The position numbers were made by a program, and so were the translations under genes. Below the pieces are notes generated by a model. That model saw only the letters and a list, made by a program, of their open reading frames with translations. It was not told where the DNA came from and did not search any database. From contig NZ_CP117768.1 in the NCBI RefSeq assembly GCF_028623165.1, positions 3,844,001-3,908,000 of the forward strand: a stretch of 64,000 nt of DNA. Direction: 5' to 3'. The stretch is from Nostoc sp. UHCC 0926 (GTDB lineage Bacteria; Cyanobacteriota; Cyanobacteriia; Cyanobacteriales; Nostocaceae). Below, piece by piece: positions 2,086 to 23,735 of the stretch. Position 1 is the stretch's first letter. The number at the start of each line of letters is the position of its first letter.

Positions 2086-3029
2086 TTGGAAATGTGCAAT
2101 ACAGCCTTGCCAGGAAAACGTCTGTCGAGTAGTTGTTGCGCTACATCAGCTATTTGTGTCCAAGAAGCTTCTAAATCAATGTGAGGACGCAACTGACCTG
2201 CTTCTACTAGACTCAAAAGCCGTTTTAGACCGACTGCGGCTGATTCAAATCTCAGTTCATCGAAAAGACGTAAACCATACAGGCTTACACTACCAGTCCC
2301 AAAGAATTGGGCAGCGTTGAATGTCACTTCATCTCCCCCAGACACTCCATACAACACAGTTTTTCCATCCTGTGCCAGTAAGCTAAGGGCTACCCCCAAA
2401 GTCTTACCACCCACTGACTCTATAATTAGATGATAGGGGCCATACTCGCTTGCGGGTGAGAGGTCTTCGCTAATTACCACCGATTGTGCCCCTGCTTCCT
2501 TGACCAGAGTCTCATAGCCAGCTTGCCGAATGTGTGCCACGACGTGCGCCCCTGACAGCCGCGCCAATTGGATAGCAAAGTAACCAACACCTCCTGATGC
2601 ACCTGTAATCAGAACTGGGCGACCTAACAGCGAACCGCCTTTAAGCACAGCATGATAAGCGGTTAAACCTGCTACAGGCAGTGTGGCAGCTTGAGCAAAG
2701 GATACCGATGGCGGCAGTTCTGCTAAGGCGTTGGTGGGAACAGACACGAGTTCTGCCCAAGCACCGGAACGGCGAAAGCCAACTACACGCGCCCCTTGGG
2801 GAGGCCCTGAACCATCGGCAGCGGGGGTTTCCACTACACCTGCCAAGTCCCAACCAGGCTGCCAACCAGCCTCAGCAGAAGTTGAACGTTTCACCTCTCC
2901 CCGATTCAGGGAAATTGCTGCTACGCGCACTAAAGCTTCATCTGGAGCAGGCTTTGGTGCAGTCACTTCACTCAGTGCCAAACGCCCCGGCACATTGGGA
3001 TCAACAATCACAGCACGTATTTTGCTCAT
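2082..3029 (-). CDS. Zinc-type/quinone oxidoreductase family protein (MDR superfamily)
   Basis: This 315-residue medium-chain dehydrogenase/reductase has an N-terminal GroES-like domain (about residues 1-120, with AISLNRGEVKR and PGWDLAGVV) and a Rossmann domain whose nucleotide-binding loop reads ITGASGGVGYFAIQLA near residue 140. No clear zinc-binding cysteines are present, which points to the NADPH:quinone reductase branch rather than zinc alcohol dehydrogenases. It is first in a minus-strand unit with a pyrophosphatase-like gene (overlapping stop/start) and an SDR. The ATG start lies 215 bases from the divergently oriented acetolactate decarboxylase locus, so promoters for both directions are expected in that gap. 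Substrate unknown. Confidence 0.88.
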   Translation of the reverse strand: MSKIRAVIVDPNVPGRLALSEVTAPKPAPDEALVRVAAISLNRGEVKRSTSAEAGWQPGWDLAGVVETPAADGSGPPQGARVVGFRRSGAWAELVSVPTNALAELPPSVSFAQAATLPVAGLTAYHAVLKGGSLLGRPVLITGASGGVGYFAIQLARLSGAHVVAHIRQAGYETLVKEAGAQSVVISEDLSPASEYGPYHLIIESVGGKTLGVALSLLAQDGKTVLYGVSGGDEVTFNAAQFFGTGSVSLYGLRLFDELRFESAAVGLKRLLSLVEAGQLRPHIDLEASWTQIADVAQQLLDRRFPGKAVLHISN

Positions 3030-3409
3030 AAGGTTGCCCTGGCTTAGAGATTAATTTCTAGTTCGTTGGTTTGCAATGTACTGCCTGCAATAGATAAGCT
3101 CGATAGATTAACTATTTCTTCTTAACTGCAAATCCTGTAACTAGGTTAACGAAATTTCACAAACTACGGTAACTCAATAGGTTTATAGTATTTTATAGAA
3201 TGTAAAAAGAAAGGTATCACAGACAGCCAAAATAATCAAGCACCTTGGGAAAATATTTGTTTCATGAATGGTTGCATCTATTGCTGTGTTGTAAGCTAGT
3301 CGCTCTCAACCTCCTACCTGACTACGAGAAGTCGCCCTTTAGGCGTCTATGGATTCTGGTGTGCAGTATGAGAGAATTTAGAATTAATAAATTTTATCTG
3401 TTTTATCTT

Positions 3410-4204
3410 ATGAAACTCAAGCGTTATTTATGGATAACTATTTTAACCATAACTGCATTATTAGGTATTATTCTTCCAGGAAGAACTCAGGAAGATACCT
3501 CATCAAAGACCCTATTTAAAATATCTACGATTAGTGCTTTATCAATAGGTATTTATGAGGGAGATACTAATTTTAAGGAATTGAAGAGATCCGGTAATTT
3601 TGGTTTGGGAGCAGTCAATTATCTGGATGGAGAAATGATTGGATTAGATGGCAAATTTTACCAGGTCAAATCTGATGGAGTTGCCTCTGTCATTCCTGAT
3701 TCGATGAAAAGCCCTTTTGCGGCAGTCACCTTTTTTAAACCACAAAGATTAATTAATCTAGAAGGGCAGATTAATTATCAACAATTGCAGCAATCGTTAG
3801 ATCAGCAATTACTGACTAAAAATTATCCTTATGCTATTCGCATTCAAGGTAATTTTCCTTATCTCAAATTTAGAAGTGTCCCCAAACAAAACCCACCCTA
3901 TCGTCCTTTGGCAGAGGCACTTAAAGAACAATTAATTTTTGAGTTAAGGAACGTCAATGGTACCTTAGTGGGTTTTCGGACACCCAAATATATGCAAGCA
4001 GTAAATGCTAATGGCTATCACTTTCATTTCATAACTGCAAATCGGAAAACTGGAGGACATATTTTAGATGGACAATTTCAAAATGCTAAAGTAGAAGTTG
4101 ATACTCTATCAAAGGTTGAGATAAATTTGCCCAAAACTGCCGAATTTGACCAAGCTGATTTGGGAGATGGCAAACCTACTAAAATCAACAGAGTTGAACG
4201 GTAA
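3410..4204 (+). CDS. budA: Alpha-acetolactate decarboxylase, exported form
   Basis: The enzyme converts acetolactate to acetoin and CO2. The zinc ligands are visible as GYHFHFIT (HxH) and GGHILDG (third His), the spacing known for the family, with the conserved N-terminal region DGEMIGLDGKFYQ. I place the start at the ATG at 3410 (MKLKRYLWI), because it yields a basic N-terminus followed by a hydrophobic stretch ending near PGRTQ, i.e. a signal peptide or anchor, and a mature length close to the family's. The frame is open upstream to 3245, but that extension has no family similarity and runs through repeat-like sequence. An exported location is inferred from the signal. A VOC gene follows after 23 bases and may be co-transcribed. 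Confidence 0.88.
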   Translation: MKLKRYLWITILTITALLGIILPGRTQEDTSSKTLFKISTISALSIGIYEGDTNFKELKRSGNFGLGAVNYLDGEMIGLDGKFYQVKSDGVASVIPDSMKSPFAAVTFFKPQRLINLEGQINYQQLQQSLDQQLLTKNYPYAIRIQGNFPYLKFRSVPKQNPPYRPLAEALKEQLIFELRNVNGTLVGFRTPKYMQAVNANGYHFHFITANRKTGGHILDGQFQNAKVEVDTLSKVEINLPKTAEFDQADLGDGKPTKINRVER

Positions 4205-4227
4205 CTAAATATTTTTGGATTAAACCT

Positions 4228-4629
4228 ATGTCCCTACCAGAAACTATTGCAAAAGAAAAGGATACCCGTCCCCCTGTGGCGATTGGTCATGTGAGATTAT
4301 ATGTGAGTAATGTACCGGAGGCTAGCGATTTTTTCATCAAGATAGGGCTGCGGCTAATCACCCAATCAGAACAATTAGCTGTTTTAGAATTACGGGGAGG
4401 AACGCACTTAGTTTTGAGAACAACTTCAGAGGCGATCGCTCCTGGAATGAATGCGCCTTTTGATCTGATGGTAGATGATGTTTCCGTCACCAGAGATACT
4501 TTTAGGAAGTGGGGACTAACTGTTTCTGAGATTGAACCAGGCAGAATCCACAGTTCATTTACCTTGACCGGGCCGGACGGCTATCTATTGACCTTAACTT
4601 CCTCACATACAGGCGGTAGAGAAGTTTAA
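4228..4629 (+). CDS. VOC-superfamily (glyoxalase/bleomycin-resistance-like) protein
   Basis: The protein has 133 residues with the paired beta-alpha-beta-beta-beta pattern of the vicinal oxygen chelate fold: IGHVRLYVSNVPEASDFFIK at the start of module one and FDLMVDDVSVTRDTFRKWG at module two, ending in LTGPDGYLLTLTS. VOC proteins are metal-dependent lyases, isomerases, dioxygenases or antibiotic-binding proteins; length and motif do not fix which. It starts 23 bases after the acetolactate decarboxylase and lies 28 bases before a GNAT gene, suggesting a three-gene transcript. Function otherwise unknown. Confidence 0.82.
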   Translation: MSLPETIAKEKDTRPPVAIGHVRLYVSNVPEASDFFIKIGLRLITQSEQLAVLELRGGTHLVLRTTSEAIAPGMNAPFDLMVDDVSVTRDTFRKWGLTVSEIEPGRIHSSFTLTGPDGYLLTLTSSHTGGREV

Positions 4630-4657
4630 CAATGTTAGTCCAGGGTTAGATCACAAG

Positions 4658-5176
4658 ATGAAAATATACTCTCAACGACTCTGTTTAGAACCACTAAAAC
4701 CGGATCATGCCGAACTGCTTTTTGATGGATTACAGAGTACGAGTATATACGATTTTATTGAAGATGTGCCGCCACAAAGTGTTGAATCGCTTCGCGATCG
4801 CTACATGGTGTTGGCACGTCGTCAATCACCAGATGGAACAGAGATTTGGTTGAATTGGGCTGTCTGGTCTTTTGTAGAGAAATGCTACGTTGGATATGTT
4901 CAAGCAACAATTACTGTAGATAACAGTGCAATCCTTGGATATGTGTTTTTCCCTAATTCATGGGGAAAAGGTTATGCACGCGAAGCAGTGAAGTGGATGA
5001 TTAATTATTTAGTTGAGACATACCAAAATCTTAATTTTTGCGCTGACGTTAATGTTCAAAATCACCGTTCTATTGCTTTATTGCATAATCTGGGATTTGT
5101 CCGCTCGACATTTTTTGAAAATATTCAGTCTAACCAAGATGAATTTAACCACGAAGTACAGTATCAAAAACGCTGA
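4658..5176 (+). CDS. GNAT-family N-acetyltransferase (RimJ/RimL type)
   Basis: This 172-residue protein opens with SQRLCLEPLKPDHAELLFD, a hallmark of the Acetyltransf_3 (RimJ/RimL-like) branch. The acetyl-CoA-binding loop appears as FFPNSWGKGYAREAVKWMI (the Q/RxxGxG/A equivalent is WGKGYA), followed by NVQNHRSIALLHNLGFVRS, the C-terminal helix-strand block. Family members acetylate protein N-termini, antibiotics or small amines using acetyl-CoA; the substrate here is unknown. It is the last gene of the plus-strand group beginning with acetolactate decarboxylase and is convergent with the dihydroorotase homologue. Confidence 0.85.
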   Translation: MKIYSQRLCLEPLKPDHAELLFDGLQSTSIYDFIEDVPPQSVESLRDRYMVLARRQSPDGTEIWLNWAVWSFVEKCYVGYVQATITVDNSAILGYVFFPNSWGKGYAREAVKWMINYLVETYQNLNFCADVNVQNHRSIALLHNLGFVRSTFFENIQSNQDEFNHEVQYQKR

Positions 5177-5224
5177 TAGATAATTAAATTCAGATTAGAT
5201 GAATCTCAGAGTGTTTTGCATTTT

Positions 5225-6520
5225 TCAACACCAGGTTTGCACAACATGACCCTTCAACTGTTGTTCTAACCAAGGTGTATTTTGTGAAAGTGTATAAAGA
5301 CTTTTCCGTTCGACTTTCCAGGTTTGCTGGGGATCAAATAAAGTAAGTTCCGCTGCTTGATGAGGTAGAATCGCACTGACTTTCTGCCCCAAACACTCCG
5401 CTGGACTGCTACTCAATGCCCGCCATAATTCTAAAGCTGTAAATTCCTCAGTTTCAACGAGATACTGCCACAGCAAGGGTAATGCTAACTCGAAACCAAT
5501 TGCTCCTGGAGGTGCTTCGGCAAAGGCTTGGACTTTTTCTTCGTAGCTGTAGGGTGTGTGGTCAATAGCGATCGCATCTATCACACCCGCACGCACCCCT
5601 GCACGCAACGCCACAACATCACTGGGATTACCTAAAGGCGGGTCTAAATGCAAGCTGGTGTTATAACTCTTAACTGCTTTTGTATCAAGTAAAAGGTGCA
5701 TCCAGGTGGTGCTGGCGGTGATCGGTAAACCAGCAGCCTTGGCTGAGGCGATTAATTCCACGCTGCGAGATGTGGAGACACGCATGATATGGACTGGTGT
5801 ACCGATGGCTGCAACTAATTCAAGCATTGCTGCGATCGCAGTGGTTTCAGCGCTGGCGGGTATTGGAGGTAAACCGAAACGCAGAGCATCTGGCCCTTCT
5901 CTGATTACACCATTTGCTGCTAATTGGCGATCGCTAGGCCAAAATGCTACTCGTTTACCCAACGGCTGGACATACTCTAACACTCCCCGCAGCAGCGCCA
6001 AATTTTCTAAGGGCTTACCATCGCTAAAACCAACAACTCCAGCAGACGCTAAATCTGCCAATTCCGTCATTTGCTTCCCAGCAATATTTAGGGTGATAGC
6101 GCCCCAGATATGAAGCAGGGGGAGAGGAGAAGCAGGGGCAGCCAAATTAATTTTCTCCTTCTCCCTCATCTTTCCATGTCTTTTTTGCTGCAACTGTGCC
6201 ACAAGCGCAGGGTTATCAATAACTGGGGATGTATCGGGTAAAATGCTAACTCTGGTAAAGCCACCAGCCGCAGCAGCTTGTAAAAGAGATAACAGGGTTT
6301 CCCGTTCTTCAAACCCTGGTTCACCAGAGTGGCTGTATAAATCCACTAACCCAGGCCCAAGAACTAATCCCTGACAATCTCTAATTTGAGTATCAGAATT
6401 GATTTCAGAAATGTGCGAAGCCACTGCTTGGATATAACCATCAGCAATCAACACATCAAAGAGTTCGTCGATTTCAGAAACTGGGTCGATTACCCGTACT
6501 TTTTGCAGCAGTTCAGTCAT
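5225..6520 (-). CDS. Dihydroorotase-like protein, metal ligands lost (PyrC' type)
   Basis: The 431-residue protein has the length and order of class I dihydroorotases: a small N-terminal beta-domain, GLVDLYSHSGEPGFEERET, and a barrel ending near ECLGQKVSAILPHQAAEL. The active-site signature is degraded. The usual DxHxHxREPG reads DLYSHSGEPG (first His to Tyr, Arg to Gly), the TPHHL block reads TWMHLLL, and the DHAPH block reads DHTPYSYEEK. Several ligands for the two zincs and for dihydroorotate are therefore missing. Non-catalytic dihydroorotase homologues are known as structural partners of aspartate transcarbamoylase; by analogy this may play that role. A catalytic enzyme would have to be encoded elsewhere. 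The ATG at 6520 fits the family start. Confidence 0.85.
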   Translation of the reverse strand: MTELLQKVRVIDPVSEIDELFDVLIADGYIQAVASHISEINSDTQIRDCQGLVLGPGLVDLYSHSGEPGFEERETLLSLLQAAAAGGFTRVSILPDTSPVIDNPALVAQLQQKRHGKMREKEKINLAAPASPLPLLHIWGAITLNIAGKQMTELADLASAGVVGFSDGKPLENLALLRGVLEYVQPLGKRVAFWPSDRQLAANGVIREGPDALRFGLPPIPASAETTAIAAMLELVAAIGTPVHIMRVSTSRSVELIASAKAAGLPITASTTWMHLLLDTKAVKSYNTSLHLDPPLGNPSDVVALRAGVRAGVIDAIAIDHTPYSYEEKVQAFAEAPPGAIGFELALPLLWQYLVETEEFTALELWRALSSSPAECLGQKVSAILPHQAAELTLFDPQQTWKVERKSLYTLSQNTPWLEQQLKGHVVQTWC

Positions 6521-6911
6521 AAAAGTTTTTAGTTATGAGTTATATAGCGGCTCTCGTTTATATGCAATACACTCTGACCTCACTTCCATTCCTCTGCCCT
6601 TTTAGGCTACCGTGTACATACCCTCATCCACATTGGCTATCTGGTAGGGTGCGTTATGGACATTAGTCCTAACGCACCAAATATCTGGGATGATGCCCTA
6701 CCCTCAGCAATAACACACCCGACAAAACTAGGATTTTAAGGCTTTCAATCTTACTCCCCTACGCTACAAGGGTTGGGGCTGTTCTTGTTAGGTCTGTATT
6801 GGACTTAACCCAGAAGCGCTATAAGTTATTTGTTCCTCAGTAATTGCTTCTAACTTTATTCCTCACTCCTGTACAGACGCGATTAATCGCGTCTCTTCAC
6901 TCAGCACTTTT
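6521..6911. other. Intergenic spacer with dispersed repeats
   Basis: No gene is seen. The spacer holds 'gtagggtgcgttatggac...ctaacgcacc' (around 6645-6680), whose ends are complementary, and 'acagacgcgattaatcgcgtctc' (around 6875-6897), a short palindrome of a type scattered in Nostoc genomes. The latter lies about 10 bases past the histidine phosphatase stop and could serve as its terminator. Confidence 0.5.
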
Positions 6912-8264
6912 TTACAATGCCCCAGCTGCTGTTTTATCTAGTACCCCTCCACCCAAGTGAGTAGTGATGTTCATCGCTTGCAGTACTGGTAAACCATCTA
7001 TTCCACAAGGGTAGTCGATAACACTGACTGCGCCATTACCCTGGCGAAAATTCCAGAAATTTTCCAGCGATAAACCCAGAATATGACAAAGCAAGGTTTT
7101 GTTAGTAGCGTCATGAGCTACTACTAATACAGTTTTGAGTTGATTAGTTAATGCTGCTTGCACAATTGATTCCCAAGCTGCAACGCTGCGTTCCCACACC
7201 TCTTGCAAATTTTCCCCTTCAGGCATTTGCACTTGGGCCGGCACTAACCGCCAGCGTTGCAACTCTCCCGGAAACTCTTGCTCTATCTCTGCTTCTAATT
7301 TTCCTTCCCAGAGTCCGTGGCTGATTTCTCTTAAATCATCTTGCAATTCTAACTTTAGATTAGGATGGTGTTTTAAAATAATCTCTGCTGTTTCTTTGGG
7401 GCGCAGCATTGAGCTACTGCAAGCATTATCAATCGCTACCTCTTTGAGAAATTCGCCTGCTTTTTGCGATTGTTGTCTACCGTTGTCGTTGAGGGGGACA
7501 TCAATTTGTCCTTGAAACCTGGTTTGGCGATTCCAGTCGGTTTCGCCGTGACGCACCAATAACAACCTTACTCCTTGATGATCCGGTCGCAATGAGGGTA
7601 GACTTTCCCCAGTATGTTGCGTCTGATTTAAGGATTCTAGCTGGACTGGTTCCCCCAATCCCCCAGAAAAATTTAGTACTGTGATGCCACAGTTAGATTG
7701 CTGTATTGAATGGTAGCGACTTGCAGGGATTCCTAGCGCTGTGCTAATCAGGGCGCGATTAATGCCGTTATGCCCCACTATGAGAATAGTTTCGCCTTGA
7801 TGGTGGGACAAAATTTCTTGCCAAAACTGCCGTGCTTGTTCGTATAAAGCAAGAACAGGAAAATGTTCTCTTGTTCCTTGTGCATCATTCAGCAGCATCC
7901 GCAGTTCGTCAGGGCGTTGATGCCAAGTGCGGTAGTCTTCGGCAAACTTTTGCTTGACTTCGGCAGTCAGCAGTGCTTCCCATAAAGGCAAGTCGATTTC
8001 CAGCAGTAAATCAGAAACTTGGAGTACAGCAGACTGTTCACGATGAGTAGCTAACTCACTATAAATAATATCTGCTGTGTGTTTCGCTCTTTGCAGCGGA
8101 CTGCTGTAAATCGCATTAAATAAAATATTACTGAGGGCTTTGCCAACTTTACTGGCATCGTTACGACCTTTTTCGGTTAATGTTGACGCATCAGTGCGCC
8201 CCTGAATACGCCGTTCGGTGTTATAACCGCTTTGACCGTGGCGCACAATGATGACACGAGTCAT
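6912..8264 (-). CDS. Tandem-domain histidine phosphatase (phosphoglycerate mutase family)
   Basis: The 450-residue protein holds two histidine-phosphatase domains in tandem. The first opens with VIIVRHGQSGYNTE at residue 4, the second with LLLVRHGETDWNRQTRFQGQ near residue 234. Both contain the RHG phospho-acceptor motif and a distal His (VGHNG and VAHDA). Both domains therefore look catalytic, unlike many tandem family members in which one is degenerate. Such proteins dephosphorylate small phospho-metabolites; annotation as phosphoglycerate mutase is usually wrong for the cofactor-independent activity. Tandem versions are common in cyanobacteria. It is a monocistronic minus-strand gene and the ATG at 8264 gives the expected N-terminal beta strand. 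Confidence 0.9.
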   Translation of the reverse strand: MTRVIIVRHGQSGYNTERRIQGRTDASTLTEKGRNDASKVGKALSNILFNAIYSSPLQRAKHTADIIYSELATHREQSAVLQVSDLLLEIDLPLWEALLTAEVKQKFAEDYRTWHQRPDELRMLLNDAQGTREHFPVLALYEQARQFWQEILSHHQGETILIVGHNGINRALISTALGIPASRYHSIQQSNCGITVLNFSGGLGEPVQLESLNQTQHTGESLPSLRPDHQGVRLLLVRHGETDWNRQTRFQGQIDVPLNDNGRQQSQKAGEFLKEVAIDNACSSSMLRPKETAEIILKHHPNLKLELQDDLREISHGLWEGKLEAEIEQEFPGELQRWRLVPAQVQMPEGENLQEVWERSVAAWESIVQAALTNQLKTVLVVAHDATNKTLLCHILGLSLENFWNFRQGNGAVSVIDYPCGIDGLPVLQAMNITTHLGGGVLDKTAAGAL

Positions 8265-8740
8265 CTACAAAGCCCTCCTCTATCTAGACGATTAATTCTA
8301 CTGCAAAATGATTGAAGAATTATCGACTCAGGAAGGCGGATTTCGTAAAATGCAACACTTTATACTTGTATAAAAGGTAGGATGAGCAACAAAAACCGCC
8401 GTTGTGTTAACGATGCTTCCCAACAAAACTGTTTTTATCTAAACATAAATATCCGCTCTAACTCTAGTACAGCAAGGCGTCAATCCAGCTACCATCCATC
8501 AGTGATAGGTTAAGGTCATGAATAATTTGTCAATAAATGAAACCAAAAGTAATAGTGCTTCAAATCCGGTTTGAAAACACAATTTTCGCTCCTGCGATCG
8601 CCTAATGTTTAAACCGAGCATTCGTGTGGTAACTCTAGCTTCTCATGTCACTCTGCCTCAATTCTTGCAAAGCTTTGTCTAATCTCGATTTCACCGATTT
8701 CTGTCAGGCAGTCAGGGTGTAGTGAAGGACATGCAGCAGA
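8265..8740. other. Intergenic region next to an integron cassette; cassette-head duplicate
   Basis: No convincing gene is seen. Near 8467 lies 'ctagtacagcaaggcgt', which recurs as 'ctagtacagcacggcgt' near 49234, so it is a dispersed repeat. The end adjoining the attC (about 8715-8740) is a diverged copy of the cassette's own 5' head found at about 9215-9240. It looks like the remnant of a second, mostly deleted, cassette copy. Confidence 0.45.
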
Positions 8741-8833
8741 ACCTAACGGCTGGAAGCTCAACGGCGGCGGGAGGAAAAGCAACCTCTCTGCCTCAGATAC
8801 TACCTCGCCGTTCGTTGTAGCGCCTTGTTAGGC
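8741..8833 (-). other. attC recombination site of an integron-type gene cassette
   Basis: Read on the minus strand this 93-base stretch opens with GCCTAAC and closes with GTTAGGT. These fit the integron R'' (RYYYAAC) and R' (GTTRRRY) core sites. Inside, AACGGCG near the R'' side pairs with CGCCGTT near the R' side, with unpaired bases and a variable loop between, the folded-hairpin layout used by integron integrases. It begins at the base after the stop codon of the SnoaL-like gene, as in standard cassettes. No integrase gene lies in the window. The call rests on motif and geometry; a covariance-model search would settle it. Confidence 0.75.
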
Positions 8834-9232
8834 TCAGTGGCCCGACAATGGAAGTGGACAGATTTCCATGGTTTGAATCAAGCCATGCTCAATGGTATAA
8901 CGATGACCAACGTGCTCATCGGAAAGAACTGTTCCAGCTAGGTCGCGCACGACCTGATGCACATCGACTAAGATACGCCCCGAATCTTCCCGGTCAAAGG
9001 AAATCGGCTCAACGTGCGGATTGATGCCGGACCATTGCCTCGTCCAGTAAGCGCGGACTGCTTGATGTCCATGGACATAACCGCCTTCAAACGCTTTCGG
9101 CCAAGCCACGTCAGGAGTCGTTGTGGCGAGCGCGGCGTCAATATCTCGCGCGTTGAAGGCAGCGTACGCCGCGCGTATCAGTTCAATTTCTGGTGCAGAT
9201 TTCTCTGGCATAAGAGGTGTGGTGAAGGGCAT
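8834..9232 (-). CDS. SnoaL/NTF2-like protein encoded on a gene cassette
   Basis: The product has about 130 residues. IELIRAAYAAFNARDIDAAL, then DVAWPKAFEGG, then VRAYWTRQW and VDVHQVVRDLAG give the cone-shaped SnoaL/NTF2 fold of small polyketide cyclases, isomerases and many proteins of unknown role. I start at the ATG at 9232; an ATG at 9211 (MPEKSAPEIEL) is equally good, while the upstream open stretch to 9322 lies outside the cassette boundary. The gene is clearly GC-richer than its neighbours. It is bounded on its 3' side by an attC and on its 5' side by GTTAAGC (9241-9247), which fits an R' core site. The structure and base composition indicate horizontal acquisition as an integron cassette. 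Cellular function unknown. Confidence 0.8.
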   Translation of the reverse strand: MPFTTPLMPEKSAPEIELIRAAYAAFNARDIDAALATTTPDVAWPKAFEGGYVHGHQAVRAYWTRQWSGINPHVEPISFDREDSGRILVDVHQVVRDLAGTVLSDEHVGHRYTIEHGLIQTMEICPLPLSGH

Positions 9233-9339
9233 GCAGCAGGGCTTAACAATTCTTATGTAGAACGCTTCCGCATAATATCCCGCAGCGGGTGGATTAAGCC
9301 GAATAATTCTGTATAACACCATAACACCTTACATCACCT

Positions 9340-9424
9340 CGACATTCCGACACGGCTTTTAGGGCATGGTTGGGGCAGTGGCAGTGTCGGAATGTCGTTG
9401 GGTCTGTGGCGAGTCTTTCGCCAC
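9340..9424. repeat. Perfect 14-nt inverted repeat plus second hairpin
   Basis: CGACATTCCGACAC (9340-9353) and its exact complement (9384-9397) flank a 30-base loop. A second hairpin follows directly (GTGGCG 9406-9411, CGCCAC 9419-9424). The region lies upstream of the cassette gene and contains no convincing coding sequence. It may be the remnant of an insertion sequence end or an exported DNA structure; nothing in the sequence decides. Confidence 0.55.
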
Positions 9425-9551
9425 AATGTACTAGCTTTGTTCCATTCTGAAGGTGTGCCCTGCACATGGACTGCTGACTAGAAGCTGAAAAAGGCGTCTG
9501 CACTCGTAGGGTATCTACAGTAAAAATTACAGCGTCAACCTTGATACCTGA

Positions 9552-9905
9552 TTATTTTCTGTCGATATCTAACTGTACTTCCAATCCATCATTGTCACTC
9601 CCAGACTGAGCAGGTGTTAAGAAAACAGAAGTGTCTGGCAGTGATAATGATTCGTTAAAGCGGATTTTAGCTGGGGTTTTATTGCCTCTTCTATGATTGT
9701 TGGAGATGCTTGCTGGATTAGTTCGCTCAAAAAACCTTCCAAAGTCATCTTGGGCTGTTCTATTATCAATTCCAACTAGAGAATCACCAGTTAATCTGTA
9801 TTGTTCTAGATTTGATCTTGATGTCGGTGACTGGGCGTACACCTGGCTTCCTAAGCTTGCAAAGGCTGCGGTAATTCCCAACAAAGCAATAATTTTGGTG
9901 TTCAT
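9552..9905 (-). CDS. Small secreted protein of unknown function
   Basis: The 117-residue protein starts with MNTKIIALLGITAAFASLG and has a likely signal-peptidase site at VYAQS near residue 25, so it is probably exported. The mature part is hydrophilic, with no cysteines and no motif I recognise (SNLEQYRLTGDSLVGIDNRT, later NNHRRGNKTPAKIRF). It stands alone on the minus strand with about 400 bases of AT-rich leader upstream. I do not recognise the family. Confidence 0.6.
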   Translation of the reverse strand: MNTKIIALLGITAAFASLGSQVYAQSPTSRSNLEQYRLTGDSLVGIDNRTAQDDFGRFFERTNPASISNNHRRGNKTPAKIRFNESLSLPDTSVFLTPAQSGSDNDGLEVQLDIDRK

Positions 9906-10320
9906 TTGTTTTATCCCAATTATCTTTGATATTGCTTGTCTTTATTCTCTGGGTAAATTATTTTAATTAACTCTATCGTTAGGTTATACTACAATAATTA
10001 TATTGCGTATATACTTAGCTCGTCAATGATTCCTGCTCTATGTTGCGTAAAATAAACAGAAGAAATATTAGCCAAGCTATAACCTTGGCATTCTTTTAGA
10101 CAGTGCGATTATTTAGTTTAGTTTCCAAACGATCGCGGTTGAGTTCGTTGAGATATGCCAGGATTAAATCAGGGATATTTAAGAGTCGCAGTAGGGCGAT
10201 CGCCCTCAGTAATAAAAGCGATCAAAGATAGTAAAGTCATCAACAGATAAAAGTTAAGATTTGTTTAAGCGATCGCTACAGTAGATAAAGCAGTAAAATT
10301 GCGACACCGATAGCGTAGCG
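9906..10320. other. AT-rich and HIP1-rich spacer, no gene seen
   Basis: The first part is AT-rich and probably carries the promoter of the small secreted protein. From about 10120 the spacer has several GCGATCGC or near-HIP1 octamers in about 170 bases. No open frame with coding character is visible. Confidence 0.5.
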
Positions 10321-10440
10321 TTAGCGACGCAGGAGCGTCATAGCCCGCACAACTCTTGGAGACGCTCTTGTTAGCAAGATCCCCGTAGGGGTACGACATG
10401 GTTCGACTGCGCTCACCAGCCGCTCAGTGACCATCGTAGA
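10321..10440 (-). repeat. Dispersed repeat (copy 1, minus orientation)
   Basis: On the minus strand this segment reads TGGTCACTGAGCGG...GTCGAACCATG..., then CTACGGGGATCTTGCTA and AAGAGCGTCTCCAAGAGTTG. The same blocks in the same order occur on the plus strand at about 11870-12000, and shorter parts recur near 32795 and 45275-45355. It supplies the last codons of the adjoining decayed TPR frame. Confidence 0.7.
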
Positions 10441-10644
10441 CATCGCTAACAAGATTTGGACAAACTGACCTAACCGACGTTTCCAGATAGCACGGGAAGT
10501 AGACTGACGTTGCAGGATTACTAGATTTTCTCGAATTGTCGCTGTAGTGGGATGATTAACCCCTAAAATGCGATCGCACATTGCCAAGGCTTGAGTGTAG
10601 AGGGGTTCGGCTTCGCTGTAGCGCCCAAAGCTATAACCAAGCCT
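10441..10644 (-). pseudogene. Remnant of a kinesin-light-chain-type TPR protein
   Basis: The minus-strand translation contains GRYSEAEPLYTQALAMCDRI followed by LGVNHPTTATIRENLVILQR, the typical 42-residue tetratricopeptide unit of cyanobacterial TPR_12 proteins. Only about one and a half repeats remain. There is no start, and the 3' end runs into a dispersed repeat. This is a fragment of a larger gene, not a functional 88-residue protein. The neighbouring bestrophin gene is intact and separated by about 20 bases. Confidence 0.7.
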
Positions 10645-10662
10645 TGGAAATTTTTCCCAATC

Positions 10663-11583
10663 TCAACTTTTATCATAGGTCAAATTACCTGGATGCGATC
10701 GCGCATTTGGAGTCAGAGTAATTAAATCGTCAATATTGCGTTTCATTGTGTCGCAAATCGTATCTAGAGGTAAGTCGTTAGGGTCATAACCAAAGGGGTT
10801 TTCTATCTCCAAGCCGATGGCTTCAATGCCAAATACTGTAAAACCAACCAAAGCAGCAATTAAACCTGTCCACCAACCCAAACTATCCACTATTTGAAAA
10901 GGTAATAGGAAACAATACAATAATAATAATTGCTTAAGATGAATGGCATAAGCTAATGGCATAGGTGTTTTTAAAATCCGTTCACAAGCACCTAAATTAT
11001 CAACTAGATTATTCAATAATTCTTGCATAGATGTTAACTGGTAGCTATTAAGGCAATTGCGATGATACTGCTCCTGTAAATAATCTCCTATCCAAAAGGC
11101 AACCTCTATGGGAGGATTATTCATAATCTTTAGTTTTATATACTTAGTAGATGGCATTAAATCTTCTAACTCGCTATTGACTGCTTCTCCCCGCAAATGT
11201 AATTTGGTTGTCACAGCAAAAGCTACCAATAAATTTAATGCTGTAATTTTATTGTCTTTATCTTCTGGTGATATTTCATCAATTGATACCCAAATCTGCC
11301 GGGCCAGATTTCGGATGTTATTTACTAAAGATCCCCAGCATTTTCTCCCTTCCCAAAATCGCTCATAAGCAGTATTTGTGCGAAATACAAGTAACAAACC
11401 TAAAACAATACTAGGAATGACACTTCCCAAAATAGGTTGGGATACAGGCATCTCAAAATGGTCAAGTAGAGAAATCAAAAATCCGAAAGCTCCGCACCAT
11501 AAAATATGTTTGTAAATTGCTTTCATCACCGAACCTTTAAGTTGTAATTTGGTGCGTAGCCATGTGAATTTTTCGGCTGTCAT
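10663..11583 (-). CDS. Bestrophin-family anion channel
   Basis: The 306-residue membrane protein matches bestrophin/YneE-type (UPF0187) channels. The signature is LVFRTNTAYERFWEGRKCWG, followed by NNIRNLARQIWVS, with hydrophobic segments near residues 24-42, 50-67, about 215-233 and 237-257, and a C-terminal EIENPFGYDPNDLPLD block conserved in the family. Bestrophins form pentameric anion or cation channels; in photosynthetic organisms some conduct chloride or bicarbonate across membranes. The location here (plasma or thylakoid membrane) cannot be decided. It is monocistronic, and the ATG at 11583 gives the usual N-terminal amphipathic stretch. Dispersed repeats of one family flank it in opposite orientation. 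Confidence 0.9.
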   Translation of the reverse strand: MTAEKFTWLRTKLQLKGSVMKAIYKHILWCGAFGFLISLLDHFEMPVSQPILGSVIPSIVLGLLLVFRTNTAYERFWEGRKCWGSLVNNIRNLARQIWVSIDEISPEDKDNKITALNLLVAFAVTTKLHLRGEAVNSELEDLMPSTKYIKLKIMNNPPIEVAFWIGDYLQEQYHRNCLNSYQLTSMQELLNNLVDNLGACERILKTPMPLAYAIHLKQLLLLYCFLLPFQIVDSLGWWTGLIAALVGFTVFGIEAIGLEIENPFGYDPNDLPLDTICDTMKRNIDDLITLTPNARSHPGNLTYDKS

Positions 11584-12180
11584 GCAGTCACCCTGAATAT
11601 TTAGTGAACCGATAGATTAAACATCGATACTTTAAAAATAATAACTATAGAAATAGCACAATTGGCAAAGAGGATACTGTAATAAGTAGTGTTGGGAAGA
11701 TCACAGGATATGCTGGCGGCAATGACTGTATCCTACCTTCTGTGACAATCCACTGAGGTCGGAAGGGGGAGCAGGGGAGGCAAGTGCGTTGCGCGGGTTC
11801 CCCGCGTTGTAGCAACTGCCGTGAGGCAGGGGAAGGATTATTATATAAAAGTCAAAAGCGATGCCTACGGTGGTCACTGACTTGTACTGAGCGCACTTGT
11901 ACTGAGCGCAGCCTAAGTAGTCGAACCATGCCGTACTCCTACGGGGATCTTGCTAGCAAGAGCGTCTCCAAGAGTTGTGCTGGCTACGCCTACGCAGCAA
12001 TTGTAAATAAATGTCAAGATTTCTCGGTGGCTGCATAAATCCCGTGCCTCATCCCGATAAATCAATAGAACAAAAAGTACATGGCTATCGATGATGGTTA
12101 TACAACATTAGTCTCTATCATGTATGCCAGTAAATTAAAAAGTTCTAACCTGTACAAATCCTGCCCTGTAAATTGAATGT
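11584..12180. repeat. Intergenic spacer with dispersed repeat (copy 2, plus orientation, about 11857-12001)
   Basis: From 11857 the spacer reads 'gcgatgcctacggtggtcac', passes through two copies of 'ttgtactgagcgca' and ends 'aagagttgtgctggctacgc'. It matches copy 1 (10321-10440) in opposite orientation. Upstream (11780-11830) is a palindromic 'gcgcgggttccccgcg' block. No real gene is visible; the open frame across it is repeat sequence. Confidence 0.6.
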
Positions 12181-12597
12181 TTAGACATAACTAAATAAGT
12201 TATGTCTTTTTTTGTAGTTAGTCTCAAAACGTTGAATTTCAATCAAATAACCACTGGGATCACGGAAAAAACAGTGGTAAATGTTGTACTTTTCATTTAG
12301 TGTAGGTGGCTTTTCAAATTTGACGCCACGTTCTTTGAGATATTCAAACCACTCATCCACCTGCTGTGTTACCAAGGTAAAAATGACACTTGATTGCTTG
12401 TCGGCTGGAGGATCTGATGTTTTGGTTGCTTGACACAATCCCAAATATCCAGAGCCACTAACAGTATAAATTCGACAGGTTCCTTGATCAAGCCACAATT
12501 CCAAGCCCAGCTTTTGTTGGTAGAATTCTGTGGATGCATCGAGATCATGAGTATAAAAGAAAGTAACCTGCTGTTCAATTGGCGGATGATCAGACAT
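12181..12597 (-). CDS. VOC-superfamily protein (glyoxalase/dioxygenase-like)
   Basis: The 138-residue protein (start ATG 12597, MSDHPPIEQQVTFFYTHDL) shows a VOC module: FFYTHDLDASTEFYQQKLGL, GYLGLCQ, then FTLVTQQVDEWFEYLKERG and FFRDPSGYLIEIQRF. The terminal Glu in YLIEIQ is the usual second metal ligand of the fold. A start 45 bases upstream is possible but lacks family similarity and lies in a repeated segment. Substrate unknown. The 3' end of the gene coincides with a plus-strand terminator-like hairpin. Confidence 0.82.
   Translation of the reverse strand: MSDHPPIEQQVTFFYTHDLDASTEFYQQKLGLELWLDQGTCRIYTVSGSGYLGLCQATKTSDPPADKQSSVIFTLVTQQVDEWFEYLKERGVKFEKPPTLNEKYNIYHCFFRDPSGYLIEIQRFETNYKKRHNLFSYV
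12183..12213 (+). terminator. Intrinsic terminator hairpin overlapping the 3' end of the VOC gene
   Basis: AGACATAAC (12183-12191) and GTTATGTCT (12199-12207) form a perfect 9-bp stem with a 7-base loop, followed by six T residues on the plus strand. It would stop transcription arriving from the left against the VOC gene. Its left arm encodes the last codons of that gene. Confidence 0.65.
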
Positions 12598-12604
12598 AAA
12601 ATAC

Positions 12605-12715
12605 ATTTGAGTATATACCCCAACGACATCTGGCGATCGCATAGGTAAAAATTGATTGATGTTAGAAACCTGTTACTGCTCCAGAATGCCTTAAGGGCGT
12701 CTGGAGTTTCTTTTT
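12605..12715 (+). ncRNA. Candidate small RNA unit A with terminator
   Basis: The unit begins ATTTGAGTATATACCCC and ends with a CTCCAGA...TCTGGAG hairpin (12679-12706) followed by TTTCTTTTT. A homologous unit with the same head and the same terminator stem lies at 12971-13082. No open frame spans it. Duplication plus terminators suggests small RNA genes, but no promoter is clearly visible, so this is tentative. Confidence 0.35.
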
Positions 12716-12867
12716 GGAAAAAGCGATGTCTACGACGGGCTGCGCCTACGAAATTTTCTAAATCATCCGCATATGCCAGAACACGGCTGAATAGGGATAC
12801 ATACTGAATTATTTATATCTAATACAGGGCATCACTGTTGATGTACCCCTGCTACCAAACAACTCTC

Positions 12868-12902
12868 GCAAAACAGCTTCAGATGATCTGGGGCTGTTTT
12901 GC
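12868..12902. repeat. Perfect 10-bp hairpin between the two units
   Basis: GCAAAACAGC (12868-12877) and GCTGTTTTGC (12893-12902) form a perfect stem with a 15-base loop. No T-tract follows on the plus strand. It lies between units A and C in a region without genes; a role as processing site or bidirectional terminator is possible. Confidence 0.5.
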
Positions 12903-12970
12903 GTTACTTCCAACAGAAAAGGTGTGTAAACGAGAAGCACAGCAGTTGATCCTCAGACATCCTTAACTTT

Positions 12971-13082
12971 ATTTGAGTGTATACCCTGATGACGTAGGAT
13001 GCTATCACGGTGAAAATTTGATATAGGTAAATGCGTATCTTTCCTGGCTCCAGATTTGTCACAAATATTTCTGGAGTTTTTT
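12971..13082 (+). ncRNA. Candidate small RNA unit C with terminator
   Basis: The head ATTTGAGTGTATACCC matches unit A. The tail is a CTCCAGA...TCTGGAG hairpin (13048-13076) followed by six T residues, a good intrinsic terminator. The middle has diverged between the two units, with a conserved GGTRAAAATT-like block. This is a tentative RNA gene call from duplication and terminators only. Confidence 0.35.
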
Positions 13083-13211
13083 CATTATTGGAGTTTAAAA
13101 ATTACCCATCTAGGTCTAAACTCCAGTGAATATTTTATCTTTGCGAATAAATGCTATTAATATTATGAAACCATAGACTGTAGTTCAAGTGCAGGTACAG
13201 ATTTAGCACCT

Positions 13212-13523
13212 TTATGCAAGATGTGTTACACACTCAGCGATAAGCTTATTCATAGGGCTAGCTTTAGAGAAATACGAAAGAATATGATTCCGATTAATAG
13301 TTGTTTCACGGCGGCAACCAACTGCTGAGGCCCAAGCTAACCAATCAGATTTCCCAATACGTATATGCTCTCTTCGGAGATCATCCATACCAAATCTATT
13401 CTCCGGTATTTCAAGAATCTTAGCGCGAGAAATATCCGTAGCATTCTGATGATAATATAATGCTGATATAATTTCAGCATAATTAGGTGTTTTAGATAAG
13501 AAATCTTCAGATATTTTTGCCAT
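13212..13523 (-). pseudogene. C-terminal part of the reverse transcriptase, separated by frameshift
   Basis: The 103 codons from an internal ATG at 13523 continue an open frame that reaches back to about 13600 without a stop (..SGKNVTEDQLFWMAKISED..). There is no start codon with a ribosome-binding site. The sequence is helical and charged, resembling the C-terminal alpha-repeat region of defence-type reverse transcriptases. It is in the -1 frame relative to the RT gene. Adding one A to the A5 run at 13600-13604 (minus-strand sense) joins both frames into one protein of about 492 residues. I read it as the detached end of the RT gene rather than a separate gene. Confidence 0.6.
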
Positions 13524-13576
13524 CCAGAATAGCTGATCTTCAGTTACATTTTTACCACTTTTTAAAAAGTTTATAA

Positions 13577-14692
13577 TTAAAACTGATAGTTGATTAACAT
13601 TTTTACCTCTTTACAGAAGTTATATATATTTCTATTTAAGCTTGGGAAACGTTCTAAAAATATGTACATTTTTTCAAGTACGTCTTCCTCATAATCGCGA
13701 AGCAAAATTAAAACCAGTTCAGCATCTGATTCATCAATATCTGGCTCTTTTAGTAAGCTGAGTAAATAGTCAATTTGTTCTTCAGTTAATTGTTCATCCT
13801 CATCATGATCATCTTCAGTGAATAGACCAGATACCTCTATAATCTTGCGACGCAAGTGCAAGAGACTTAATTTTATACCATCTATTGTGCGTGGAAAGTG
13901 AGTATCAAGTATTTCACCATAAATAGTTTTTGCAGAATTGAGAGATAATCCCTTCTCACCTAACATCTTCTGTATCGTTATAAAATCTGATGCTAGCTTA
14001 CCTTCATCATCAGAAAAGAGATAAAAATCATCCATAAAGCGTAGTAGTAATTCGCACTGGATCTTCATAGAATTATCTACGAATTTTAGAAATTCTGCTC
14101 CAATCACTTTACATGGATGAATGCCCTGAGGAAGACAGTCAATGGATCTACCACCATTTGCCTCACGTAAAAATAGTCCAAAGGATTCTATATCGTCTTG
14201 ACTTCTACTGCCTTCACTAAACCAAGCTACTAGATCGTGCTGATATATTGAGTTAAAATAGGCGGAAATATCAAACTTCATATTAAATTTATACTGTTGC
14301 ATAGCCTGAGCAATTGCTGCTTTAAAATTTGCATAACTTTTGGTAGGTGAAATTGGTCGACCATCTTGAAAACGATAGCCAAAACTGCGGCGATTATTAT
14401 TAAAGTCTTTACGGAAGGTTGTGCGATTTCTGTATATTAAATCGTAGATAAATAAATCGGCAACTGGATCAAGCTTCACCGTTCGTCTAAGATGCAGATC
14501 ATGTTTTGAGGAATAACACCTTACTTGTGAGAGGAAAGAATAATCTTTCTCATTTTTATTCAGAACTTTTTCGTATATATACTCAAAGAGTGATTCTGCA
14601 TTATTTTCTACAACAACTTTAGTGGTAGATAAAGGAAACAGTGTTTTAGGATAATCTTCTAAAAGATATCGCACACTATTAGAATTAGTCAT
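13577..14692 (-). CDS. Defence-type (UG/Abi-like) reverse transcriptase, C-terminus cut off by frameshift
   Basis: The 371-residue product has a complete RT catalytic core. Motif A is KFDISAYFNSIY with Asp141, the segment LPQGIHPCKVIGAEFL is motif B, and FMDDFYLFSDDE holds the catalytic Asp221-Asp222 (an FxDD variant of YxDD). There is no maturase X domain, no HNH and no intron RNA around it, so it is not a group II intron protein. The compact RT followed by an acidic helical C-terminus is like the chromosomal UG/Abi/DRT reverse transcriptases implicated in phage defence; the subgroup is not decided here. The frame ends early (..VKMLINYQF) at an A5 run. The ATG at 14692 has about 130 bases of AT-rich leader before the SIMPL gene. 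Confidence 0.75.
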   Translation of the reverse strand: MTNSNSVRYLLEDYPKTLFPLSTTKVVVENNAESLFEYIYEKVLNKNEKDYSFLSQVRCYSSKHDLHLRRTVKLDPVADLFIYDLIYRNRTTFRKDFNNNRRSFGYRFQDGRPISPTKSYANFKAAIAQAMQQYKFNMKFDISAYFNSIYQHDLVAWFSEGSRSQDDIESFGLFLREANGGRSIDCLPQGIHPCKVIGAEFLKFVDNSMKIQCELLLRFMDDFYLFSDDEGKLASDFITIQKMLGEKGLSLNSAKTIYGEILDTHFPRTIDGIKLSLLHLRRKIIEVSGLFTEDDHDEDEQLTEEQIDYLLSLLKEPDIDESDAELVLILLRDYEEDVLEKMYIFLERFPSLNRNIYNFCKEVKMLINYQF

Positions 14693-14820
14693 TCAATTTG
14701 CTATTTTAGATAGTAAAATATTATACTAAAATTGGCAGTTAGTGGCAAGGCACAATAGTTAAGCGATCGCACTTCCAAATTCGACGCATATTCAAGCGCG
14801 ATCGCACCGAATATAAATGT

Positions 14821-15642
14821 TTATTTTGTTGTATATGTCACAAAAATATCCTTTTTCATCTCTACTTCCGCCGTAGCGTCTGGATTATAAGTCGGTGATA
14901 ATAAAAAACCTGCAAAAGACGGTAAAGTAACTCCAGTTTTGGAACTACATGAGGGATAAAATAATGTGTAAAATGGCTCGGCTACAGAAGGAGTCCCAAG
15001 TTTAACACCCATAGCAGTTGCTAAAGCCTGAGCACGACTTTGAGCGTCTTTCATAGCTGATTGGTAAACTGAACTCTGCAAAGCTTGACAGTCATTGACT
15101 GCGTACTCAACGCCCACACTCTTGACAGAAAGATTTTCAATTTCGCTCGTGGACTTGTTCGCTGTAGCAACAATTTCCTGGACGCGATCGCGTGTTGGTT
15201 TTTCCAGTCTCACCAATATCTTGGCGTTATTTTCACTGGAATTAGTGTTAAGTTGCACTTGAATTTTATCAGCACTAATCCCTTTGGCAACTAGGCTATT
15301 AACTACAGGCTGGAGAGTTGCTTTAGTTAGTGATTTTTTGCTTGGTAAAGATTCTGCTGCTGTTTTGTAATTTAAGAGTAGAATTGGTGAGGATATGCGG
15401 CGGACTGACCCTAAAGATGACGGTTGCGTTTCTAAGTTATTATTGCTACCTCCGCTACTGAATACCAATTCAATATCTGCTGTATCTGCTGGCACTCTCA
15501 CCACCCCTTGACCGATTACCATTAATGAATGGCGATCGCTTGCTGGTGGGTAAAATAATTGGGCATTAGTGACTTTGGGTGTTAACGCTCCCACCCCGAC
15601 AGTCACCGAAATACTTAGGATTAGAGCAGTTATTTTTCTCAT
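14821..15642 (-). CDS. SIMPL domain (DUF541) periplasmic protein
   Basis: From the ATG at 15642 (MRKITALILSISVTVGVGAL) the protein has a signal peptide with a likely cleavage after TNAQ, then the SIMPL/DUF541 fold: LMVIGQGVVRVPADTADIEL at the N-terminus, AMKDAQSRAQALATAMGV in the middle, and TAEVEMKKDIFVTYTTK at the end. The family includes the oxidative-stress proteins OMP26/YggE; biochemical function is unsettled. The frame is open 36 bases upstream to 15678, but the extension lacks signal-peptide character. Two cysteines (near residues 185 and 230) could form a disulfide. Confidence 0.85.
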   Translation of the reverse strand: MRKITALILSISVTVGVGALTPKVTNAQLFYPPASDRHSLMVIGQGVVRVPADTADIELVFSSGGSNNNLETQPSSLGSVRRISSPILLLNYKTAAESLPSKKSLTKATLQPVVNSLVAKGISADKIQVQLNTNSSENNAKILVRLEKPTRDRVQEIVATANKSTSEIENLSVKSVGVEYAVNDCQALQSSVYQSAMKDAQSRAQALATAMGVKLGTPSVAEPFYTLFYPSCSSKTGVTLPSFAGFLLSPTYNPDATAEVEMKKDIFVTYTTK

Positions 15643-20471: not shown

Positions 20472-20590
20472 TCAGTTAGGAAATAGCGATCAGTAACTTA
20501 AAATTGCCATCAATTTCCGTGTATGCACTGGGGACATTTAGAGTTTTAAATTCATAAGATTACTATATTCACGTCTGTGACTGTGAGAGT

Positions 20591-20692
20591 GACTAATTAG
20601 GTATTAGTCGCTGTTGCTGATTGTTGGGAAGGTGTAGGAACAACCCTTTGCGATTTTCCTGCATGACGGGCATCTCTTGTAGATGCCCTTTT
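20591..20692 (+). terminator. Hairpin pair ending in an intrinsic terminator (possible small RNA)
   Basis: GACTAAT (20591-20597) pairs with ATTAGTC (20603-20609). Farther on, GGGCATCT (20668-20675) pairs with AGATGCCC (20681-20688), followed by TTTT. The second hairpin is a strong intrinsic terminator on the plus strand. It lies about 200 bases after the O-antigen ligase gene, so it may end that transcript or belong to a separate small RNA. The rest of the 20472-20829 gap shows no gene. Confidence 0.6.
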
Positions 20693-23476: not shown

Positions 23477-23477
23477 T

Positions 23478-23735
23478 ATCGAAACGAACTTTGCTAAAAC
23501 TTTCCTTTTAGCTGTATCACTAGTCGAGGACTTTTCTAAGCCCCTGATTATCGCTGCAATTGTTGGAAAAGAGAATGTGGTTTTTTGTAACCTCTACGAC
23601 GCGGCGACTAAAACCAGGATTCGCTCTGAATGGAACAGAGATGCTGATTGGCTGGCAATCATTGATAGTGTTCAAACTAAGTTGCAGACATCTAAAAATT
23701 CCCATATCGTCTCTGGTGAACCAATACTGTTCTGA
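23478..23735 (+). pseudogene. 3' exon of the intron-interrupted gene
   Basis: The frame from 23478 encodes about 85 residues (IETNFAKTFLLAVSLVEDF, later FCNLYDAATKTRIRSEWNRD) and ends at 23735. It continues the frame of the 5' exon when the intron is removed with a junction after 23477. The family is not recognised. The frame is also open upstream through domain VI, but that part is intron sequence. Confidence 0.5.

Follow-up and report, generated by a model that had tools for sequence, protein, structure and literature searches.

A probable attI-proximal integron end without its integrase gene in Nostoc sp. UHCC 0926

The cassette gene and its attC site

The window, i.e., the whole stretch of 64,000 nucleotides (64 kb) of Nostoc sp. 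UHCC 0926 DNA that was analysed, carries a small gene on its minus strand, which is preceded by a leader and a GTT core and followed by an attC site. An 84-bp element adjoins the core on the other side, and behind the attC the start of a second cassette copy is present (Table 1; loci are designated by L numbers).

Table 1. Features of the locus and their positions in the window
Feature	Position	Strand	Basis
Cassette gene, 125 aa, SnoaL_2 (PF12680) / NTF2-like	8834..9211	(-)	Pfam E 1.3e-9; dN/dS
Conserved cassette leader, crossover to start codon	9212..9240	(-)	Aligned 5' flanks of homologues; partly within the direct repeat
attC, 93 nt	8741..8833	(-)	Covariance models R1 and R2, neither trained on the site; fold z -2.9
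GTTAAGC, putative attI crossover / first-cassette start	9241..9247	(-)	Spacing to the last repeat about that of the GTT cores at intI loci
Putative truncated attI, 84 bp	9248..9331	(-)	Six-sequence intI-adjacent profile matches 9252-9320, E 7.5e-13
attI palindromic repeat nearest the crossover, TTATGCGGAAGCGTTCTACATAA	9253..9275	(-)	Pattern TTATRCNGAANNNTTCNNNNTAA
Second attI palindromic repeat, 41 bp further, TTATACAGAATTATTCGGCTTAA	9294..9316	(-)	Repeat alignment and pattern
Start of second, truncated cassette copy (TTAGGT, leader and ~20 nt resembling the gene start)	8699..8747	(-)	Direct repeat; L023 homology ends at 8699
Dispersed Nostoc repeat, ~105 bp, sharp end CACTGATG	8497..8600	(-)	That end is the end of the L022-shared block
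Block common with the L022/L172 copy (inserted at another locus, clean empty site in relatives)	8497..9372	(-)	Locus comparison

The product of the gene passes the gathering cut-off of its Pfam family with 39 bits versus 27. The GC content of the gene is 54% compared to 42.5% for the window, a value reached by 4 of 509 slices. A consensus scan revealed no promoter-like site upstream of the gene on its strand, and 29 nt separate the GTTAAGC core from the ATG. The four nearest homologues share 82-98% identity with the protein, and dN/dS ranges from 0.10 to 0.33 (10 pairs, 5 sequences). This indicates that the SnoaL gene is kept by purifying selection. A likeness exists to Bal32a, reportedly described by Robinson and colleagues in 2005 as a cassette-encoded alpha+beta barrel protein; the likeness lies in an NTF2/SnoaL-like fold coming from an integron cassette. 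A sequence search of the PDB at E<=0.01 yielded three matches, and Bal32a was not named among them.

Directly after the TGA stop codon (8836-8834) lies the R'' box GCCTAAC (8833-8827), and the R' box GTTAGGT occupies 8747-8741, both on the minus strand. With R'' starting at 8833 and R' ending at 8741 the site is 93 bases long. Its inner arms are complementary with unpaired bases, and as single-stranded DNA (97 nt folded) it forms a long imperfect hairpin in which R''/R' as well as the inner arms are paired; none of 200 shuffles was equally stable. By these cores and folding inner arms, and by holding one promoterless gene in the orientation of the attC that starts shortly after the crossover, the unit has the make-up of a gene cassette.

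Two covariance models, whose E-values are rough, recognize the site. Model 1 (R1) was built from ten attCs that lie close to integron integrases or belong to one cassette array (L144, L135, L134, L046, L159, L161); the window attC was left out, and the training locus L046 does carry a homologue of the window gene. It matches 8741-8833 with 36.8 bits (E 1.5e-7). Model 2 (R2) comprises 39 attCs from 10 of 25 loci searched, including the ten of model 1 and none of the window family, and gives 45.1 bits (E 1.3e-9). For both models this is the sole match in the 64 kb at E<=10. Model 2 found no match at E<=10 in 88 control loci fetched for other reasons (297 kb), and in the whole genome the window attC is the best of three model 1 matches, with 150 of 940 first-look candidates scored. 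The window attC is therefore real. An earlier note, made from the sequence, had described this 93-base site with its cores and arms, abutting a GC-rich SnoaL-like gene, as a one-gene cassette, and had proposed a covariance model as a check; the bases are as described, the gene lies between GTTAAGC and the attC, and the check came out in favor of the site.

The homologues of the gene point in the same direction. Of 80 homologue loci fetched, 65 were inspected and 61 were testable; 28 of the 61 have the R'' motif RYYYAAC at the stop codon, versus 0-3 of 60-61 in control stretches, and the strict R' motif is only weakly enriched on the 5' side (8/54, controls 0-2). In the following, papers are cited by PMC number. 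Within cassette transcripts, attC hairpins have been hypothesised to serve as terminators (PMC8876359), which would fit the idea that an ordinary Nostoc gene is followed here by a transcription terminator or by a hairpin formed by chance. The E-values of both models, the empty controls and the R'' at the stop codon of many homologues speak against this, and its probability is next to negligible.

By record titles, the family of the SnoaL product occurs in at least eight phyla. In two loci (L024, L030) a homologue lies between two attC matches (E 5.5e-5 to 0.006). In L299 and L300, taken as the same places, model 2 gives 58.4 and 40.8 bits and 56.3 and 39.5 bits, respectively. These Nostoc loci (L024 2885-3605, L030 2882-3605, L299, L300) have the flanking attC cores GTTCGGC / GCCGAAC. 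In L046, from a Verrucomicrobia bin, three attC matches precede the homologue; the upstream attC match in L075 is not significant (E 1.9). Homologues of 75-76% identity are present in a Verrucomicrobia and a Gemmatimonadota bin, where bins can hold stray contigs. In the protein tree of 66 rows (65 of 80 loci and the window) 38 of 63 inner branches are open. A transfer of the cassette gene between phyla is suggested by these two bins, not proven.

The probable attI element and the movement of the piece

On the 5' side of the gene, the earlier note had taken GTTAAGC as the R' site of a preceding attC. The heptamer is present; a preceding attC was tried and rejected, since neither covariance model matches there, and by homology GTTAAGC corresponds to the crossover of an attI. 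Search and alignment revealed that the 84 bp past the core match stretches just upstream of intI genes and intI relics. The attI profile rests on six such stretches (L287, L288, L152, L122, L283, L281), each next to an intI that is split, partial or a relic, and with the window family excluded. At E<=0.01 it matches none of 89 control loci and 24 of 62 intI loci, 18 of these outside the training set (some being near-copies or overlapping). Among 29 intI loci with a noted start, 18 have matches at E<=0.05 and 11 have none, so not all intI loci have this type of attI. In 17 of the 18 matching loci, among them the training locus L122, every match lies within 420 nt upstream of intI; the exception is L118 at 497 nt.

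The shared structure is a palindrome of 22-23 bp, about TTATACGGAAANTTTCCGTATAA. The repeats are often 40-41 bp apart, and three to five of them are present in several loci. A permissive scan of 15 intI loci placed 28 of 74 spacings at 39-42 bp and 35 of 74 at 11-32 bp, some of the latter being half overlaps of the repeats. The last repeat is followed by TAATA..A and then by the GTT core. In the window, the two repeats are followed by the crossover at about the same distance as in the intI loci. The repeat pattern occurs twice in the window and in none of 100 shuffles; the crossover pattern has an exact match at 9241-9268 and, with one mismatch allowed, matches in 5 of 100 shuffles. The crossover core reads GTTAGGC in L105 and L107, GTTAGAC in L150, GTTAGCC or GTTAGCT in L102, L104 and L109, GTTATGC in L152 and L286, and GTTGTGC in L106; L102, L104, L105, L107 and L109 have an open intI, and L150, L152 and L286 a split or relic one. 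The cores GTTAGCC, GTTAGCT, GTTATGC and GTTGTGC deviate from strict GTTRRRY, which counts against the attI reading.

A repeat directly before a SnoaL gene is also found in the cyanobacterial loci L036, L044 and L050, and a test for this arrangement was positive at p<=0.01 in 7 of 53 testable loci, 4 of them from the window family. The three loci imply either repeated formation of attI-SnoaL junctions or an old age for them. Repeats of the attI type are also present farther upstream in L030, L299 and L300.

The name attI is given to the site from homology and position: its homologues adjoin the 5' end of intI and end in a GTT crossover, and the window copy itself stands without a neighboring intI. 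The palindromes are predicted IntI binding sites, and binding as well as recombination at the 84 bp are putative. The same palindromes might instead be operators of an intI regulator, making the 84 bp a promoter fragment. They lie where regulation would be expected, with intI on one side and the first cassette on the other, and their symmetry suits a dimeric repressor; both would fit such operators. However, the last repeat keeps a near-constant distance from the crossover, and the repeat halves begin with a GTTATRC-like core that resembles the crossover core. Cyanobacterial LexA is said to recognise divergent motifs (PMC3108266), which may also count against operators; these we consider rather unlikely.

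A direct repeat of 32 nt (8716-8747 / 9216-9247, 84%) at both ends of the unit represents two cassette starts. This bears on the question whether a lone cassette was inserted by IntI at a non-classical attG site, which would make the locus a plain SALIN with the 84 bp as ordinary flank. Insertion at attG has been reported (PMC12444791, PMC12901181), and single attCs prevail in the genus (107 of 127 clusters at 4-kb linkage, among 150 matches listed from 44 genomes). Against this, the 84 bp show homology to attI and have moved together with the cassette to unrelated loci, and a second cassette starts after the attC, so that a lone attG cassette appears very unlikely.

The same piece is found in four unrelated contexts: at the locus shared by the window, L020 and L171; beside a cobW gene (L021, L173, L174); between an aldo/keto reductase gene and a presumably DNA methylase-like gene (L022, L172); and at yet another place in L023. 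Homology with L021 and L023 starts at 9330/9331, and L022 shares 41 bp more, to 9372. At the L022 locus the flanks are 14 bp apart in 10 of 59 genomes including the own genome (three checked). As a further check the earlier note had named a comparison with related strains, and at the window locus both flanks do lie on one contig and less than 1.2 kb apart without the piece in 29 of 118 relatives (among those listed); in L177 they are 4 nt apart and the piece is absent. An exact empty site at the cassette's own borders was not found in this comparison.

At the L022 insertion no target duplication is present and 14 bp of the target are missing. Since, in addition, the shared block is larger than the cassette, the last move of the piece was probably not made by IntI. 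A non-autonomous MITE-like unit carrying an old integron cassette might have made it, so that the unit ends, not attI and attC, would explain the present places. The block from 8497 to 9372, common to the window and L022 at two different loci, would suit this, as would the coincidence of one block end with the end of the dispersed Nostoc repeat. On the contrary, an alignment of the two ends of the 633-bp core (8699-9331) was equalled by 983 of 2000 shuffles, a repeat scan of 8000-10500 found no inverted pair of at least 12 nt at 8497/9372, and the target is not duplicated. A MITE with terminal inverted repeats was rejected by the same core alignment and, for the ends of the 876-bp block, by the repeat scan. 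A MITE-like unit, which we hold to be somewhat unlikely, would account for the last move and not for the attI/attC anatomy; it can therefore hold beside an integron origin.

Further elements were observed around the piece. The dispersed repeat has further copies in the own genome and in relatives. A sequence of ~513 bp truncates the attC of the cassette in L021 (from about 3443) and L174 (from about 2066); one relative, G427, has five copies of this sequence. Just outside the left border, at 9340-9397, lies a 17-nt inverted repeat (94%) around 24 nt, of which only the inner arm is common with L022. Elsewhere in the window a group II intron match (Rfam, 23400-23485) and an NsiR9 RNA (20567-20688) are present.

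Integrase relics and the reading of the locus

No IntI remnant was found at E<=1e-3 in positions 3001-15000 of the window, in agreement with the earlier note, which had seen no integrase and had suggested a genome search for intI and further attCs. This search revealed intI relics only and, with model 2, five attC matches. In the own genome no match to the integrase family exceeds the cut-off, and the two best are fragments with stops, C3:4714634-4714864(-) and C7:903808-904089(-). To the IntI of L106, which is intact, they are 75% and 68% identical. Six further recombinase loci of this genome were compared: the C-terminal fragment is matched by three, at 28-32%, and the N-terminal fragment by none. 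Just upstream of the N-terminal relic are attI repeats, and 4.6 kb away on the expected cassette side lies an attC (38.2 bits) preceded by two small ORFs without Pfam match. Beside the relic lie what are presumably transposase-like remains.

Together, this N-terminal relic, its attI repeats, the presumed transposase-like remains, the two ORFs and the attC form a degraded integron (G000:C7:903808-908743; L296 6809-11744). Two single attC-like sites were also observed, 26 nt behind an alpha/beta hydrolase gene (L168 1501-1558(-), C3:2950288-2950345) and 23 nt behind a GAF-domain gene (L169 1501-1566(-), C3:6316480-6316545). The two other model 1 candidates of the genome fold no better than shuffles (z 0.62 and -0.20) and reach 34-35 bits with model 2.

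Throughout the genus, attC matches at E<=0.05 are present in 46 of 53 genomes, own included, a lower bound with 83 candidates scored per genome under strict filters. Matches to intI at E<=1e-17 occur in 17 of 53 genomes, with one above the cut-off, whose longest ORF is a 205-aa internal piece. Thus, no intact intI was found in the 53 genomes (up to 34 candidates scored per genome; genes may be missing from drafts). A draw of 386 genomes from the phylum gave 22 with an intI match above the cut-off, some with internal stops (up to five candidates scored per listed genome). An orientation test on 31 genus attC matches in 20 loci placed the stop of an ORF (>=50 aa) near R'' in 17 of 31 versus 14 of 31 in the mirrored control, and therefore does not discriminate. 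Across the genus the relics are mostly single attCs among those listed, with intI broken or not found.

Since a profile from intI-adjacent stretches matches the window and none of the 89 control loci, the feature is very probably the attI-proximal end of a chromosomal integron without intI, consisting of attI, first cassette, attC and the start of a second cassette. With GTTAAGC as the insertion point of attI, the piece would be such an end cut off from its intI rather than a free-standing cassette. The isolated cassette of the earlier note has to be replaced accordingly, the two attI repeats lying next to its 5' end.

Here, with the bottom strand of the attC folded, an integron integrase would have excised the SnoaL cassette in circular form, and the cassette would then have been inserted by IntI at attI (G^TTAAGC). 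Both steps are putative for this cassette. Later, intI would have decayed within the Nostoc lineage, and the attI-cassette piece would have been copied or moved to several chromosomal places. The piece of today would be inherited, with a SnoaL gene still under selection, and its attC could still be usable by an incoming IntI.

The window would thereby display what remains after a lineage loses its integron, one cassette frozen at attI and under selection. The reuse of such relics by an incoming integrase and the recognition of an attI built of palindromic repeats become testable questions. Furthermore, the attI motif offers a means to spot integron remains without intI and without a strong attC. 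A more far-reaching proposal would be that attI sites in cyanobacteria consist of palindromic repeats that are arrayed at distances of about four helical turns and bound by the integrase, and that a truncated attI with its first cassette is mobile as its own unit in Nostoc, cassettes thus still spreading in the genus without intact integrases. As a whole, we regard this proposal as speculative and quite unlikely.

Comparison with known integron systems

Clustered attCs lacking integron-integrase (CALIN; PMC9024848), single attCs lacking integron-integrase (SALIN; PMC12690207) and truncated integrons are already known, and the authors of IntegronFinder state that single-attC cases can be true (PMC9024848). 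New here are an attI built as a repeat array, an orphan piece of attI plus cassette, and the dispersal of that piece; a literature search largely outside the subscription journals gave no title or abstract opening on a repeat-array attI or on a Nostoc-wide relic set. The window has no intI adjoining attI as in a complete integron, and a single attC in 64 kb instead of the two or more close together without intI that define a CALIN. One attC without intI is what defines a SALIN, and the attI comes as an extra feature. The window shares with SALIN and CALIN a gene with one attC that lacks an integrase in its vicinity. Unlike these, the cassette is probably still at its attI with a second-cassette start behind it, and the piece recurs in unrelated loci.

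For cyanobacteria, enough is known of attCs to build a taxon model (PMC8352920), and integrons in this phylum as well as intI pseudogenes in bacteria have been described (PMC2426708, PMC9668308). The window resembles cyanobacterial chromosomal integrons, since attC type, attI type and intI relics match loci with a complete IntI. In contrast to these, intI is gone here, and the search of 53 genus genomes gave broken intI or no match.

A truncated attI joined to a cassette is also known from the Delta-attI-type cassettes of mobile integrons (PMC12901181). There, the truncated attI is part of the cassette and is recombined by IntI1, whereas in the window the putative attI, known from sequence alone, stands before the first cassette. 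In class 1 integrons, attI1 has two direct repeats upstream of the L-R boxes and spans about 65 bp (PMC4792948). Common to attI1 and the cyanobacterial sites are repeats on the intI side of the GTT crossover. In contrast to attI1, the cyanobacterial repeats are palindromic and recur every 40-41 bp, with three to five of them in several loci.
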